48,426 nucleotides of DNA from Candidatus Kapaibacterium sp. (lineage in GTDB: Bacteria; Bacteroidota; Ignavibacteria; Kapaibacteriales; UBA4661). Every line of letters starts with the position of its first letter. The first letter of the stretch is position 1. Below the pieces are notes generated by a model. The model had not been told where the DNA came from, searched no databases, and saw nothing but the letters and a program-made list of their open reading frames with translations. A program made the translations under genes and the position numbers. The DNA lies in assembly GCA_025055035.1 (NCBI GenBank), contig JANWZB010000008.1, positions 1 through 48,426 on the forward strand, in the 5' to 3' direction. Of this stretch, positions 14,008 through 19,045 are shown in pieces.

Positions 14008-17000
14008 ATGATGACAGTAGGAGAGTCAAGGATGCGTCTGGGGTACGTGTTCTTGACTTCCCTGTCGTTGGCTATCAAGTCTGCTCCGTATACTTTCCTA
14101 GCCATTCTAGTTTTATCAACTCTTAACGTATTTATGACGATGCAACTGCAAGCAGGCTATATTCTCGAATTTTTGGAGGAAAAACTTCTGAAAGACAACA
14201 ATCCTTTCGAAGTCTTATCACTTCTCGAATATTTATGTTACTTTGAGATTGATGGTCTAGACGAACAGAGTATATCCAATAAGCCTTATCTAGCAGTACT
14301 AAGCAATTTGATATCGCGGGGACTACCAACAAGACCAAGCCTATTTATTGAGAAAGCTTTTTTGTCTGCTTTACATATTGGTGAAATTTGGTTCAATAGT
14401 TTAGGAAGTATTGAGACTATTGTCAACGAGTCATTGAGTTCTCTTTCTCAGTATCTTTTCAGAGCTTTGCATATTATTGACCCAGCATTAGATTTGAAGG
14501 TACAATCAGATATGTGCCTGTATTCGAACTTGGAACTTGCAAGCGAGTATGAGAAAGAGTTTGTGTTGCTTCACGTACCAAAAATTTTGGGGAAAGAGTG
14601 GCTGCAAGTTTTAGAGCCACAAAGAATGATTACATCGATTGTTCATTCCGGCAGGTTTATAGAGCAGAGGGTGGATTTTGCCGTTGAGTTTCCATATCCA
14701 ATCTTTGACAAGAAGGGTGTTATTGTTGAAATAGACGGTCCGCAACACTGGGATGCTAATCATTCAGAGTATCTGAGGCAAAGAGGTTTAGATGGGAGTA
14801 GGGATGCTGCCACTGCTGAACATGGTTGGGAAACTGTGAGAATTAAAACAAAAAACTTTGACCAAATTGAGAGTCAGATTGCAGTTCTAAAAAATTTTGC
14901 TAAGCAGCCATACTTCAAAAACTTAAAGCTAAATTATCAAGAACCATTGTATAGTAGTGCCTATGGAATGAATGCCCTTGAGCTTGTACTTTCTCCGTTT
15001 GCTATTGCAAGGATTCAGAAGGCGTTAATTCACTTGCTCCTACAGGATACGCTGGATATCAATACTCAAGTGTGGAAAATTGCAGTAATTGAACGGGATG
15101 TACCTTGTGCTGTACTTGCAATTGCTGATTTGAGAGATCACCTTCGACATATACTGAATCTAGAGGGCAAAGTTTTCATTCCGGAAATTGAACTTTCAGT
15201 TTTCAGAAGAACTGAATTTCAGGAAGCCGCACTAAATAAACTCGACCTTTCAGGATATTTTAGGGCTGTACAGTACTATGAAATTGACGGTTGTCCACAA
15301 AACGACCAAATTGACAATATCTACGATGTGGTTCTTGACGTTGCTGTTCTGTGTCGCGCTGGTTTATTCAGAGATAATACTAACATAGTGCCACATGCGA
15401 AAAGTCTATGTACTATTCGTTCTGCTCATCACAGACGTTCCACAAGAAGATTCTTGACATCTGATGTCATCACCTATAAAAATTTTATAGCTTATAATTC
15501 TCATAATCCTGAGCAAACTACTTTTGATGTACAACCTATTCAAACGCTGCGATACTTTTTACAGAACATTTTTAGAAAAAACACATTTCGTGAAGGACAA
15601 ATTGAAATTTTGAATAAAGCTCTACAAGGAGAAAGCGTTATCGGACTTCTACCAACAGGTGCTGGTAAGTCACTAACGTATCAACTTGCTGCCATGCTGC
15701 AGCCCGGAGTATGCTTGGTGATTGATCCGATTAAGTCGCTCATGAAAGACCAAGTTGATGGTCTTAAAAAAAACAAAATAGATGCCTGCAATGTGATCAA
15801 TTCAAGTTTAACTAGGGAACAAAGGCAAAGAGAAATGTACAGATTTAGAGAGGGTGAAATACTGTTTACCTTTATTTCGCCAGAGCGCCTTCAGCTGAAA
15901 GAATTTAGAAATGTTTTGAAAGAGATGCAGAAAAAGCAAGTATATTTTAGCTACTGTGTAATCGATGAAGCACATTGCGTTTCTGAGTGGGGACATGATT
16001 TCCGTACTTCGTATTTGAGTTTGGGGAAAAATGCTATACGATTTTGCAAAACGAAAAACAAAGAAGCAATCCCACTATTTGGTTTGACAGCTACTGCCTC
16101 GTTTGATGTACTTTCGGATATTCAAAGAGAGCTTTCAGCGAATGATGAGAGATATAAACTGAGGGAAGATGCAGTTATTCGTCTTGATATACTAGACAGG
16201 AAAGAACTAAGTTTTGAGATAGTGTATGTGGATGCCAACCTGAAAAGTGATGACAGTGAAAAGGAAATAAAAAGGAAGCTAGGAGTTGAAAAACAGAAAA
16301 AAATTATTGAGCTTCTTAGAACATTTAAGTTTGATGCGGAAAATCAATTTTCAGGTATAATTTTTTGTCCTCATAGGAGCTGGTATTTTGGGGTAACGAG
16401 TCGATATAAGCAAAAACAAATAAGCGAGCAAAATGGACAAGATGGAGTGTATGACGCGATCATCAATGCTAATATACCACAGATAAGAGCAGGAACATTT
16501 ATGGGAGTTGATTCTGATGATTTTGATACAGCAAAAATAGCTGAAGCGGATTCTGTACAGGCCCAAGATGATTTTGTCAATAACAAATTGAACCTGCTTG
16601 TATCCACAAAAGCATTTGGAATGGGTATTGATAAGCCTAATGTTCGTTTTACAATTCATGTAAACTATCCAAATTCAATTGAAAGCTTTGTTCAAGAGGC
16701 AGGGAGAGCGGGTAGAGACAGAAATCCAGCTGCATGCTTTATTCTGTTTAACGACAGACAAGTTTACAAAGATGACAAAATAATTGAAGTTGATAGAGAC
16801 AATCTACTATACTTTCATCATGCTGCTTTTAAGGGTGTAGAGAAGGAAAAAACAATTTTGCTTGAGCTCCTAACAGAGATTTATCAACCTAATCAGCTAC
16901 ATGGTCTAAATCAAAAAGTTTGCGAAGAGTTTCAGCGAAAAATTAGCGTCAAACCTTGGCAAAGTACGAGAGGCGGAATGTACTTGTTTGTCGATGCAGA

Positions 17001-18396
17001 AGATTCTAGAGGAAAGTTCGGCGCAATAAAAATTCCTTCGATGAAAGTTGATACGTCAAAAGCGACAGAGCCAATAGAAGAATGTAAGAGGGTCTTGCAG
17101 TTCATCGTTGATCATATTATACAATTGTCTAGCGTAGATGCTGTCAATTTGCTAGAAGCTTCCACGATTCCCGGAATAGAGACTTTGCTACGAGAGAAGG
17201 AAAGAATTGAGCTGACTATTGGTTTTGAAAATAACACCGATGATCGGGTTAAAAAAATAGCTGAATGGTTGAATGCAGTGTGTAGGTTGAAAGAATTTGA
17301 TGCAAAAAAAGTAAAAGAGGCTGTTAGCTATTGTAACACGTTTGAAGATTTCAAAAGTCGCATAAGTCAATATTTTACGCGTGTAGAAGATGGTATTCAA
17401 AAGTTTGAGCAAGCTATGCGAGAACGAGATAGAACTATAAAAAAGCGAGTAGGGACATCAGAATATGAGCTTCAACAACTGTTTTATGGATATAGAACGA
17501 AATTGGATACAGAAAAAGCTCTGTATCGACTTGCGGCGATTGGAGTTATTGATGACTACACAGTTGATTTTAATTCCAAAACATATACAGTTTCTGCTTG
17601 CAGGAAAACCGAGCAGCAATATTTTAAAAATTTAGAAAATTACATCCGTAAGTATTATTCTGAAGTAAGAACCAAGCAAGAGATACAGAAAGCTAAGAAA
17701 TTTGAAGGGGCTACTACAATTCAAAAGTGTGTGTTTTTTCTTACTGATTTTATATATCGGGAGGTAGAAAAAAAACGGTTCGAAGCTATCTCTGTTATGA
17801 AAGAAGCATGCCTGATTGGAAAAGAAAGTGGAGGCAAAGAATTAAAAAACTTTATTGACCTGTATTTTAATTCAAAGTATGCTAGAAAAGGCTATGAAGT
17901 CGACGGACAAAATAAATCACTAACAGACAGGACTGAAGAGGGAAGAAAGCAAGATATAGAGTGGGTCTGGGAGTTTATTAAAGTAATCGACGAAGATAAG
18001 TCAGGTAGTCATATTGACAATCTTAAGCATCTACGAGGTGCATGTGCTAGACTGTTAACGCCGCAACCTGATAATGCGGTGTTCCATTTACTCAAGGCGT
18101 TTTCTATATTTATCTTAGAACCAGATAATGCAAGACTAATGGAAGAAGCATCCAATAGCTTTGTAAAAGGATTCGTTGAATTTCAGAAGGAAAAGGAATG
18201 GTCTTTTAGTGAGGTGCTAGAACAAGCAGTGAAATTCAGAGATTACGTTCTTCTGTTTTCGACTCACAAAGGAATACAAGAAAGAATGCAAAATCAAATT
18301 GACTTCTTGGCTATTAGAGTCCACTCTACATGGCTTGAATCGTTTAACAAAAAATTTCTACATCAATATGAACCAAGAAGTTCACATGTATCTTGA
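14008..18396 (+). CDS. DUF559/Vsr-like nuclease fused to RecQ-like helicase
   Basis: The 1462-residue protein has three parts. Residues about 180-300 resemble the DUF559/RAP/Vsr endonuclease-like fold: RVDFAVEF (Asp223), VIVEIDGPQHW (Glu241, Asp243, His247), then RDAATAEHGWETVRIK. Residues about 520-905 are a RecQ-like superfamily 2 helicase, with FREGQIEILNKAL, Walker A PTGAGKS (Lys554), DEAH (653-656), GLTATAS (about 692), AFGMGIDKPNV (about 869) and QEAGRAGRD (896-904). The C-terminal 550 residues include a winged-helix-like stretch near 1150-1200 and are otherwise unrecognised. Composition is AT-rich with many AGA Arg codons, unlike its CGC/CGT-using neighbours, so transfer is likely. The start is uncertain: AGGAG at 14019-14023 fits the ATG at 14032, while starts at 14134 or 14140 would remove a hydrophobic N-terminus. 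A role in defence against foreign DNA is inference. Confidence 0.85.
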   Translation: MMTVGESRMRLGYVFLTSLSLAIKSAPYTFLAILVLSTLNVFMTMQLQAGYILEFLEEKLLKDNNPFEVLSLLEYLCYFEIDGLDEQSISNKPYLAVLSNLISRGLPTRPSLFIEKAFLSALHIGEIWFNSLGSIETIVNESLSSLSQYLFRALHIIDPALDLKVQSDMCLYSNLELASEYEKEFVLLHVPKILGKEWLQVLEPQRMITSIVHSGRFIEQRVDFAVEFPYPIFDKKGVIVEIDGPQHWDANHSEYLRQRGLDGSRDAATAEHGWETVRIKTKNFDQIESQIAVLKNFAKQPYFKNLKLNYQEPLYSSAYGMNALELVLSPFAIARIQKALIHLLLQDTLDINTQVWKIAVIERDVPCAVLAIADLRDHLRHILNLEGKVFIPEIELSVFRRTEFQEAALNKLDLSGYFRAVQYYEIDGCPQNDQIDNIYDVVLDVAVLCRAGLFRDNTNIVPHAKSLCTIRSAHHRRSTRRFLTSDVITYKNFIAYNSHNPEQTTFDVQPIQTLRYFLQNIFRKNTFREGQIEILNKALQGESVIGLLPTGAGKSLTYQLAAMLQPGVCLVIDPIKSLMKDQVDGLKKNKIDACNVINSSLTREQRQREMYRFREGEILFTFISPERLQLKEFRNVLKEMQKKQVYFSYCVIDEAHCVSEWGHDFRTSYLSLGKNAIRFCKTKNKEAIPLFGLTATASFDVLSDIQRELSANDERYKLREDAVIRLDILDRKELSFEIVYVDANLKSDDSEKEIKRKLGVEKQKKIIELLRTFKFDAENQFSGIIFCPHRSWYFGVTSRYKQKQISEQNGQDGVYDAIINANIPQIRAGTFMGVDSDDFDTAKIAEADSVQAQDDFVNNKLNLLVSTKAFGMGIDKPNVRFTIHVNYPNSIESFVQEAGRAGRDRNPAACFILFNDRQVYKDDKIIEVDRDNLLYFHHAAFKGVEKEKTILLELLTEIYQPNQLHGLNQKVCEEFQRKISVKPWQSTRGGMYLFVDAEDSRGKFGAIKIPSMKVDTSKATEPIEECKRVLQFIVDHIIQLSSVDAVNLLEASTIPGIETLLREKERIELTIGFENNTDDRVKKIAEWLNAVCRLKEFDAKKVKEAVSYCNTFEDFKSRISQYFTRVEDGIQKFEQAMRERDRTIKKRVGTSEYELQQLFYGYRTKLDTEKALYRLAAIGVIDDYTVDFNSKTYTVSACRKTEQQYFKNLENYIRKYYSEVRTKQEIQKAKKFEGATTIQKCVFFLTDFIYREVEKKRFEAISVMKEACLIGKESGGKELKNFIDLYFNSKYARKGYEVDGQNKSLTDRTEEGRKQDIEWVWEFIKVIDEDKSGSHIDNLKHLRGACARLLTPQPDNAVFHLLKAFSIFILEPDNARLMEEASNSFVKGFVEFQKEKEWSFSEVLEQAVKFRDYVLLFSTHKGIQERMQNQIDFLAIRVHSTWLESFNKKFLHQYEPRSSHVS

Positions 18397-19045
18397 AAAA
18401 CTCAAGGTTGAGCTAGGTAGGCTCGAACCTGCTGTTAAACACTTGCAGCGAGCAGATGAGAATGTGAGTGCACTGGTTGCATCTTTCACAAATATTCATA
18501 ATGAGTTTGCCAAACATTTGGAGAGCGTTGAGAGATCTCTTGTTAAGGCGAATGAGCAACATCAAATACAGATTAGCACAGAAATTCAGAGTTCAACGAG
18601 AAAAATTACTGAAGCAGTAGACCAGTTCTCAAAATTAGCTTCAGAATTTGAGAATCAGATGAAAACTTTTCTTTTAGGATACGGGGGGTTAGTGCGCGAA
18701 ACAAAAAGACTTATCGACAAAATGAGTGAGGTTGACTTTATTTCAAGGTTTGATAATCTAGATGCGAAAATTGGTGTAATAAATTATGGGTTTCAGGGCA
18801 CGCAATCAAGAATCAACAACTTAGAGAAAAGTGTGAACACTATTCTTGATGCTAAGTCTAAAGAACTAGCTTCGAAGGTCGAAGCAATTGAGAGTGTACT
18901 AACACAGAAATTCCAGGCTTCAGAAAATAATATAGTGCGTCAGTTTGCAGGGATTGCTAGTGAGAATAAAACCACAAGAATCTTGCTTCTCATCACAATT
19001 GGGCTTAGTATAGTGGCATTGTCAGTACAGTTTGTCAAACTATGA
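18368..19045 (+). CDS. Coiled-coil protein with C-terminal membrane anchor
   Basis: The 225-residue protein is mostly predicted helix with heptad-like spacing of hydrophobics (LEKLKVELGRLEPAVKHLQR, and repeated VEAIESVLTQKF-type stretches). It ends in one hydrophobic segment, ILLLITIGLSIVALSVQFV, close to the C-terminus, so it looks tail-anchored with the coiled coil in the cytoplasm. I recognise no family. Its ATG at 18368 overlaps the helicase gene by 29 bases; another ATG at 18386 would overlap by 11. The overlap and shared AT-rich composition mark the two as one functional unit. It might tether or sense for the helicase-nuclease, but that is inference. Confidence 0.8.
   Translation: MNQEVHMYLEKLKVELGRLEPAVKHLQRADENVSALVASFTNIHNEFAKHLESVERSLVKANEQHQIQISTEIQSSTRKITEAVDQFSKLASEFENQMKTFLLGYGGLVRETKRLIDKMSEVDFISRFDNLDAKIGVINYGFQGTQSRINNLEKSVNTILDAKSKELASKVEAIESVLTQKFQASENNIVRQFAGIASENKTTRILLLITIGLSIVALSVQFVKL

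Follow-up and report, generated by a model that had tools for sequence, protein, structure and literature searches.

The window analysed here, a stretch of 48,426 nucleotides from a Candidatus Kapaibacterium genome, contains an AT-rich block of two overlapping genes (mechanical open reading frames at 14008−18396, 1462 aa, and 18299−19045, 248 aa). The features of this locus, with the residues of gene 1 counted throughout from the start codon at position 14008, are the following:

13735−13983, forward strand: left flank, gene for a GlsB/Transgly_assoc membrane protein, which adjoins the right-flank gene in empty-site relatives
14140−18396, forward strand: gene 1, predicted fusion of a DUF559/PD-(D/E)XK nuclease with a RecQ-type helicase (1418 aa, from the probable start)
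14512−14913, forward strand: nuclease domain of gene 1 with predicted PD-(D/E)XK fold (residues about 169−302; D223, E241, D243, H247)
15550−16797, forward strand: RecQ-type SF2 helicase core of gene 1 (residues 515−930; Walker A GAGKS, DEAH, QEAGRAGRD)
16798−18393, forward strand: family-specific C-terminal region of gene 1 (residues 931−1462), with conserved DTEKALYRL..GVIDDYTVD and NLKHLRGA motifs and a mostly helical model
18368−19045, forward strand: gene 2, tail-anchored coiled-coil partner (225 aa, from the probable start), overlapping gene 1 by 29 nt
18968−19042, forward strand: C-terminal transmembrane helix of the partner
19176−20216, reverse strand: right flank, gene for an L,D-transpeptidase (YkuD)

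For both genes, the start sites probably differ from those of the mechanical open reading frames. When gene 1 is read from the ATG at 14008, its alignment to close relatives begins only at residue 45; because these relatives align from that residue onward we moved the start to the ATG at 14140, which is probably the real one, and the hydrophobic stretch in residues 1−44 would therefore fall outside the gene 1 protein. This in-frame extension (14008−14139) encodes an apparent transmembrane segment that is absent from the relatives, and it may lead automatic gene calling to a wrong annotation of the gene 1 protein as membrane-bound. The mechanical frame of gene 2 opens with a TTG at 18299; the relatives at three loci (L035−L037) start at the equivalent of the ATG at 18368 (MNQEVH...), the probable start in the window as well. 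With the revised starts, the overlap between the two genes has an identical length in these three relatives. The GC content of gene 1 is 0.372 and that of gene 2 is 0.381, as compared to 0.470 ± 0.017 for the 24 other genes of the window (z-scores of −5.7 and −5.2, respectively). The AT-rich two-gene overlap described in the original prediction is therefore confirmed by the reading frames and by base composition, with both start sites corrected.

By both motif and fold, the N-terminal domain of gene 1 is predicted to be a DUF559/PD-(D/E)XK nuclease. The motif set previously read in this region as DUF559/RAP/Vsr-like (D223, E241-I-D243-G and H247) holds across 20 full-length relatives, where D223, E241, D243 and G244 are invariant and H247 is nearly so. 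Profile HMMs detected DUF559 in 11 of 16 family members, with a best E value of 4.9e-10; for the window protein alone the match to this profile is marginal (E 0.1). We modelled residues 45−515 with AlphaFold2 (mean pLDDT 88), and in a fold search model residues 125−258 matched restriction-endonuclease-like folds, among them TnsA (Z 6.8, rmsd 3.4, 101 aligned residues), VRR_NUC (Z 6.7, rmsd 3.8, 102 aligned) and a RAP module (Z 7.2, rmsd 4.5, 110 aligned), these Z scores of about 7 being in the middling range. Foldseek on its own returned no match under an E value of 0.001. The N-terminal model also matched methyltransferase-fold chains, the best of them with Z 9.7 and rmsd 4.7 over 223 aligned residues that run across the nuclease; because these matches span it, we tentatively suggest that a Rossmann-like region may contain the nuclease as an insertion. 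Two family members (L030 and L033) have no nuclease core, and nuclease activity is therefore not essential in every version of the system.

The helicase core that follows scores 248.8 bits against TIGR00614, exceeding the cut-off of that model, and all of its helicase motifs are intact. The region had been predicted to be a full RecQ-type helicase; the RecQ-type core is strongly supported, but the enzyme is not full, as a Pfam scan of the gene 1 protein found no Zn-binding, RQC or HRDC family. The protein also misses the RecQ equivalog cut-off (277.7 of 640.2 bits), and we therefore rejected gene 1 as a canonical or complete RecQ. A separate canonical RecQ (C182) is carried by the same genome. 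Neither residues 1150−1462 nor the C-terminal region generally has a Pfam match. The model of this region is confident (pLDDT 88), but a fold search with it yielded no convincing structural relative, the matches being TPR/14-3-3-like helical ones that all had Z below 7.

The protein encoded by gene 2 has significant heptad periodicity (p about 0.002 against shuffled sequences) and a single transmembrane helix predicted at its extreme C-terminus, in line with the tail-anchored coiled-coil protein proposed earlier. Many partners have in common a motif of the type [ND]FPxRLDKxD. The Pfam matches of the partner (apolipoprotein, Baculo_PEP and others) are below cut-off and were rejected as reflecting coiled-coil composition; its match to NCBIfam LA_3659, which passes the cut-off of 36 with 37.9 bits, probably has the same origin. 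When the partner sequence was used as a query against 395 genomes, only the partner itself was found.

The association between the two genes is far beyond chance. A tail-anchored open reading frame lies immediately downstream of gene 1 in all 15 testable homologues from the phylum sample and from plasmids, and in 24 of the 26 loci recovered when about 85,000 species genomes were scanned; in both sets, which have three genomes in common, it usually overlaps gene 1. One of the two exceptions is a fragment (L052), and in the other the partner has a weaker transmembrane score (L040). As a control we examined other open reading frames from the same neighbourhoods: a strict single C-terminal transmembrane helix was present in 35 of 37 partners, versus none of 202 neighbouring frames. 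Homologues regularly lacking gene 2 would have spoken against a two-gene system; the partner was found in essentially all intact homologues. On an E. coli plasmid (L076:9001−14543), the helicase gene carries an IS5 element in its 3' part, which separates it from the tail-anchored gene and leaves a natural broken copy.

The gene pair recurs in distantly related bacteria, including E. coli. Its distribution is patchy, with the gene 1 family present in 14 of 395 genomes of the phylum and in seven of 5,426 E. coli genomes (four copies on plasmids and three on the chromosome), and plasmid copies occur in Haliscomenobacter, Salinibacter, Rhodothermus and E. coli. For the scan of the collection, alignments of the whole family proved too divergent, and a five-sequence alignment of the C-terminal region served for genome contigs; this alignment gave no matches among viral contigs, and matches in phage records were confined to the generic RecQ core. 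Two family members (L059 and L056) are found on contigs binned as Nanoarchaeota and Clostridium, reflecting either wide transfer or mis-binning.

Within its own genus, the pair is a discrete horizontal acquisition that was inserted as a unit. In three genomes of the same genus (G283, G397 and G398) the GlsB-like and L,D-transpeptidase genes are adjacent and the pair is absent, with about 140−220 bp between the aligned parts of the flanks. The adjacency of the flanks in these three congeners therefore indicates a clean insertion. The low GC content of both genes, their patchy distribution and the plasmid copies likewise mark the pair as mobile. The closest relatives of the pair were found in Bacteroidales and Flavobacteriales metagenome-assembled genomes, at 60−62% identity over the full length; a relative from the same class is about 39% identical.

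Elsewhere, the neighbourhoods of the pair are those of defence islands. At one locus (L050, 134−17677) the pair lies between the BrxC-PglX and BrxHI-PglZ genes of a BREX system, and at another (L053) it is found directly upstream of BrxF-BrxC-PglX. Restriction-modification (RM) genes of type I, IIG or III adjoin the pair at L020, L037, L040, L049, L057, L061 and L076; at L061, on an E. coli chromosome, its neighbours are a type I RM system on one side and the Mza anti-phage system on the other, with an integrase close by. A DrmD-like (DISARM-like) gene occurs near the pair at L042 and a kinase at L039, and a tally of 160 neighbouring proteins also included the Azaca, DarTG, PifA and CARF families. 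As a raw count, at least ten loci lie individually beside known defence genes. In the window, no other defence gene was found beside the pair. The original prediction would have been weakened by a regular placement in housekeeping loci; the loci that we found are patchy and often in defence islands, and a defence role is well supported by this genomic context.

In a maximum-likelihood tree of helicase cores, 22 family members including an E. coli plasmid copy group in a single clade (support 100/100) that excludes canonical RecQ (that of the same genome included) and PsyrT. DpdF is not represented in this tree, as none scored above cut-off among 296 genomes of the phylum. We found no description of the gene pair in a literature search that covered mainly open-access texts, so that a recent naming is possible. 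Published helicases of non-RM defence systems include those of AbiR, Azaca, BREX, DISARM, Dpd, Druantia, Gabija, Hachiman, Hhe, Hna, Mokosh, Nhi, PsyrTA, Shango, Zorya and others (PMC12278908). We did not recognise the gene pair in any named system of that list, and neither PADLOC nor NCBIfam gave an exact match to a named system, which agrees with the view taken at the outset that the pair is not a named system. By these comparisons, no named system appears to have its composition.

Several systems nevertheless resemble it in part. PsyrTA and RqlHI likewise place a RecQ-type helicase in a two-gene unit, and the E. coli homologue of the pair has a DprA-like gene upstream. RqlH is a RecQ-like helicase with a phosphoribosyltransferase (PRTase) domain that is genotoxic unless restrained by the DprA-like RqlI (PMC4670107), and P2-like phages carry a DprA-PRTase defence pair (PMC9122126). 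The window protein, in contrast, has no PRTase domain in Pfam and PADLOC scans and no DprA-like gene beside it, its neighbours being the GlsB-like and YkuD genes; it differs further in its predicted N-terminal DUF559 nuclease, its C-terminus, its tail-anchored partner and the separate clade of its helicase core. The PsyrT model matches only this core (7e-42, as against about 1e-255 for full-length PsyrT). The E. coli homologue resembles ShosTA, a PRTase toxin with a DprA-like antitoxin, in its ShosA-like gene and its ShosT-like N-terminal region; the window version, unlike that homologue, has no ShosTA parts. We are not aware of any helicase, nuclease or membrane partner in ShosTA.

SNIPE is a membrane-bound nuclease, and we know of no RecQ-nuclease fusion with a tail-anchored coiled-coil partner in SNIPE, Zorya or Kiwa. 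The likeness of all three to the window pair is a DNA-targeting enzyme linked to a membrane protein (PMC12904381); they differ from it in that Zorya has a MotAB-like motor and Kiwa has KwaA/KwaB (PMC12904381). The MotAB-like ZorA/ZorB and the ZorD of Zorya were not found in the pair, the partner having only weak coiled-coil similarity to ZorA (E 7e-4) and one C-terminal transmembrane helix. Nor were SngA, SngB and SngC of Shango: SngC is matched by the helicase core only (7.7e-5), and there are no further defence genes. Hachiman (HamAB) also comprises a nuclease plus a helicase, of which the latter keeps the former in check up to the encounter with damaged DNA (PMC12278908), but its nuclease and helicase belong to other families, are two separate proteins and have no membrane anchor, and PADLOC gave no HamA or HamB match for either window protein. 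Nhi combines nuclease and helicase in one polypeptide (PMC12904381), a likeness by description only; it is a single gene with no membrane partner reported in that source. In ARMADA and other YprA-helicase systems an SF2 helicase is fused to a Vsr-type nuclease (PMC12458937), but the helicase is of the YprA rather than the RecQ family and the nuclease is C-terminal.

The family itself is modular. In the E. coli homologue (L021:9548−15692; L061:13075−19162) an additional N-terminal ShosT-like HAD/phosphoribosyltransferase region precedes the nuclease-helicase. Together with the ShosA-like DprA gene found upstream, the operon is thus a hybrid of three genes that has toxin-antitoxin features. At L030:7763−12888 the protein begins with a methyltransferase-like domain and has no DUF559 core, and the coiled-coil partner still follows. 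What stays constant in the family is the helicase with its C-terminal region, plus the anchor. Because some lineages carry such extra N-terminal modules, these arrangements suggest that helicase and membrane anchor form a shared chassis on which outputs or guards can be exchanged. We give even odds to the broader proposal that membrane-tethered RecQ-nuclease immune systems form a widespread but undescribed family whose chassis takes differing N-terminal modules, a ShosTA-type toxin-antitoxin in E. coli among them. If so, the E. coli operon could join DNA attack with a guarded suicide response.

The gene pair is probably an unnamed bacterial immune system. Specifically, we propose, with a probability of about 55%, that it is a horizontally acquired immune operon directed against phages or other invading DNA (anti-phage or anti-plasmid), in which a membrane-tethered helicase-nuclease destroys the invading DNA. 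There are precedents for membrane-localised DNA targeting in Zorya, Kiwa and SNIPE (PMC12904381), and for helicase-nuclease defence in Hachiman (PMC12278908) and Nhi (PMC12904381). From the operon structure and the predicted topology we infer that the mechanism would be localised at the membrane: the partner would anchor the enzyme, probably as an oligomer, on the cytoplasmic face of the inner membrane, and the tethered helicase would load, close to the site of entry, on foreign DNA that is incoming or replicating, unwind it and hand it to the nuclease for cleavage. The host chromosome would be partly protected by the tethering or by autoinhibition. It is plausible, as the original prediction suggested, that the large protein would sense and degrade DNA and that the small one would localise or trigger it. 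If this proposal is true, a compact two-gene immune system joins the DNA-targeting defences, along with a new way to confine a dangerous nuclease-helicase at the membrane. With the E. coli copies, the system can be tested directly in a standard laboratory strain; these copies also connect RecQ/DprA toxin pairs, helicase-nuclease defence and membrane-localised defence, which have hitherto been studied separately.

The main alternative to a membrane-tethered DNA-degrading system is abortive infection or a guarded toxin, in which the helicase-nuclease senses and the tail-anchored protein damages the membrane, or in which the large enzyme is itself toxic and is restrained by its partner. The E. 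coli version, with its ShosT-like region downstream of a ShosA/PsyrA-like DprA gene, favours this, as does the precedent of RqlH, a genotoxic RecQ-like helicase held back by RqlI (PMC4670107), and in several known systems the transmembrane protein is believed to act as a suicide effector (PMC9122126). However, most members, including that of the window, are without a DprA or phosphoribosyltransferase component, the helicase clade of the family is separate from PsyrT, and in our judgement one C-terminal transmembrane helix with a long coiled coil resembles an anchor more than a pore; we consider this alternative rather unlikely.

An accessory helicase for DNA repair or replication restart, with no part in immunity, seems improbable. 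The core is indeed RecQ-like, RecQ proteins are repair enzymes and some copies reside on plasmids, but the genome already possesses its canonical RecQ, congeners have a clean empty site in place of the pair, the family occurs in so few genomes of the phylum (14 of 395), and its copies often lie beside BREX, RM or Mza. Least probable of all, and already contradicted, is the identification of gene 1 as DpdF of the Dpd 7-deazaguanine DNA modification-restriction system. Among PADLOC models, those for DpdF match gene 1 best (2.8e-84), the alignment of one of them (PDLC02868) with the E. coli homologue spans most of that protein (8e-113), and the two helicase cores are related. Against this, gene 1 reaches 141 bits with the NCBIfam DpdF model, where the cut-off is 550, its own genome (99% complete) has no DpdA, and the best PADLOC DpdF stretches fall in the helicase core, which generic RecQ models match too. 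The partner is also a different one; to our knowledge, a tail-anchored partner is not a defining part of Dpd. Within the E. coli homologue, the stretch aligned by PDLC02868 ('DpdF') covers most of the nuclease-helicase at L021:10531−15204, and this model may in fact describe the gene 1 family, which it would then mislabel in automatic annotation.
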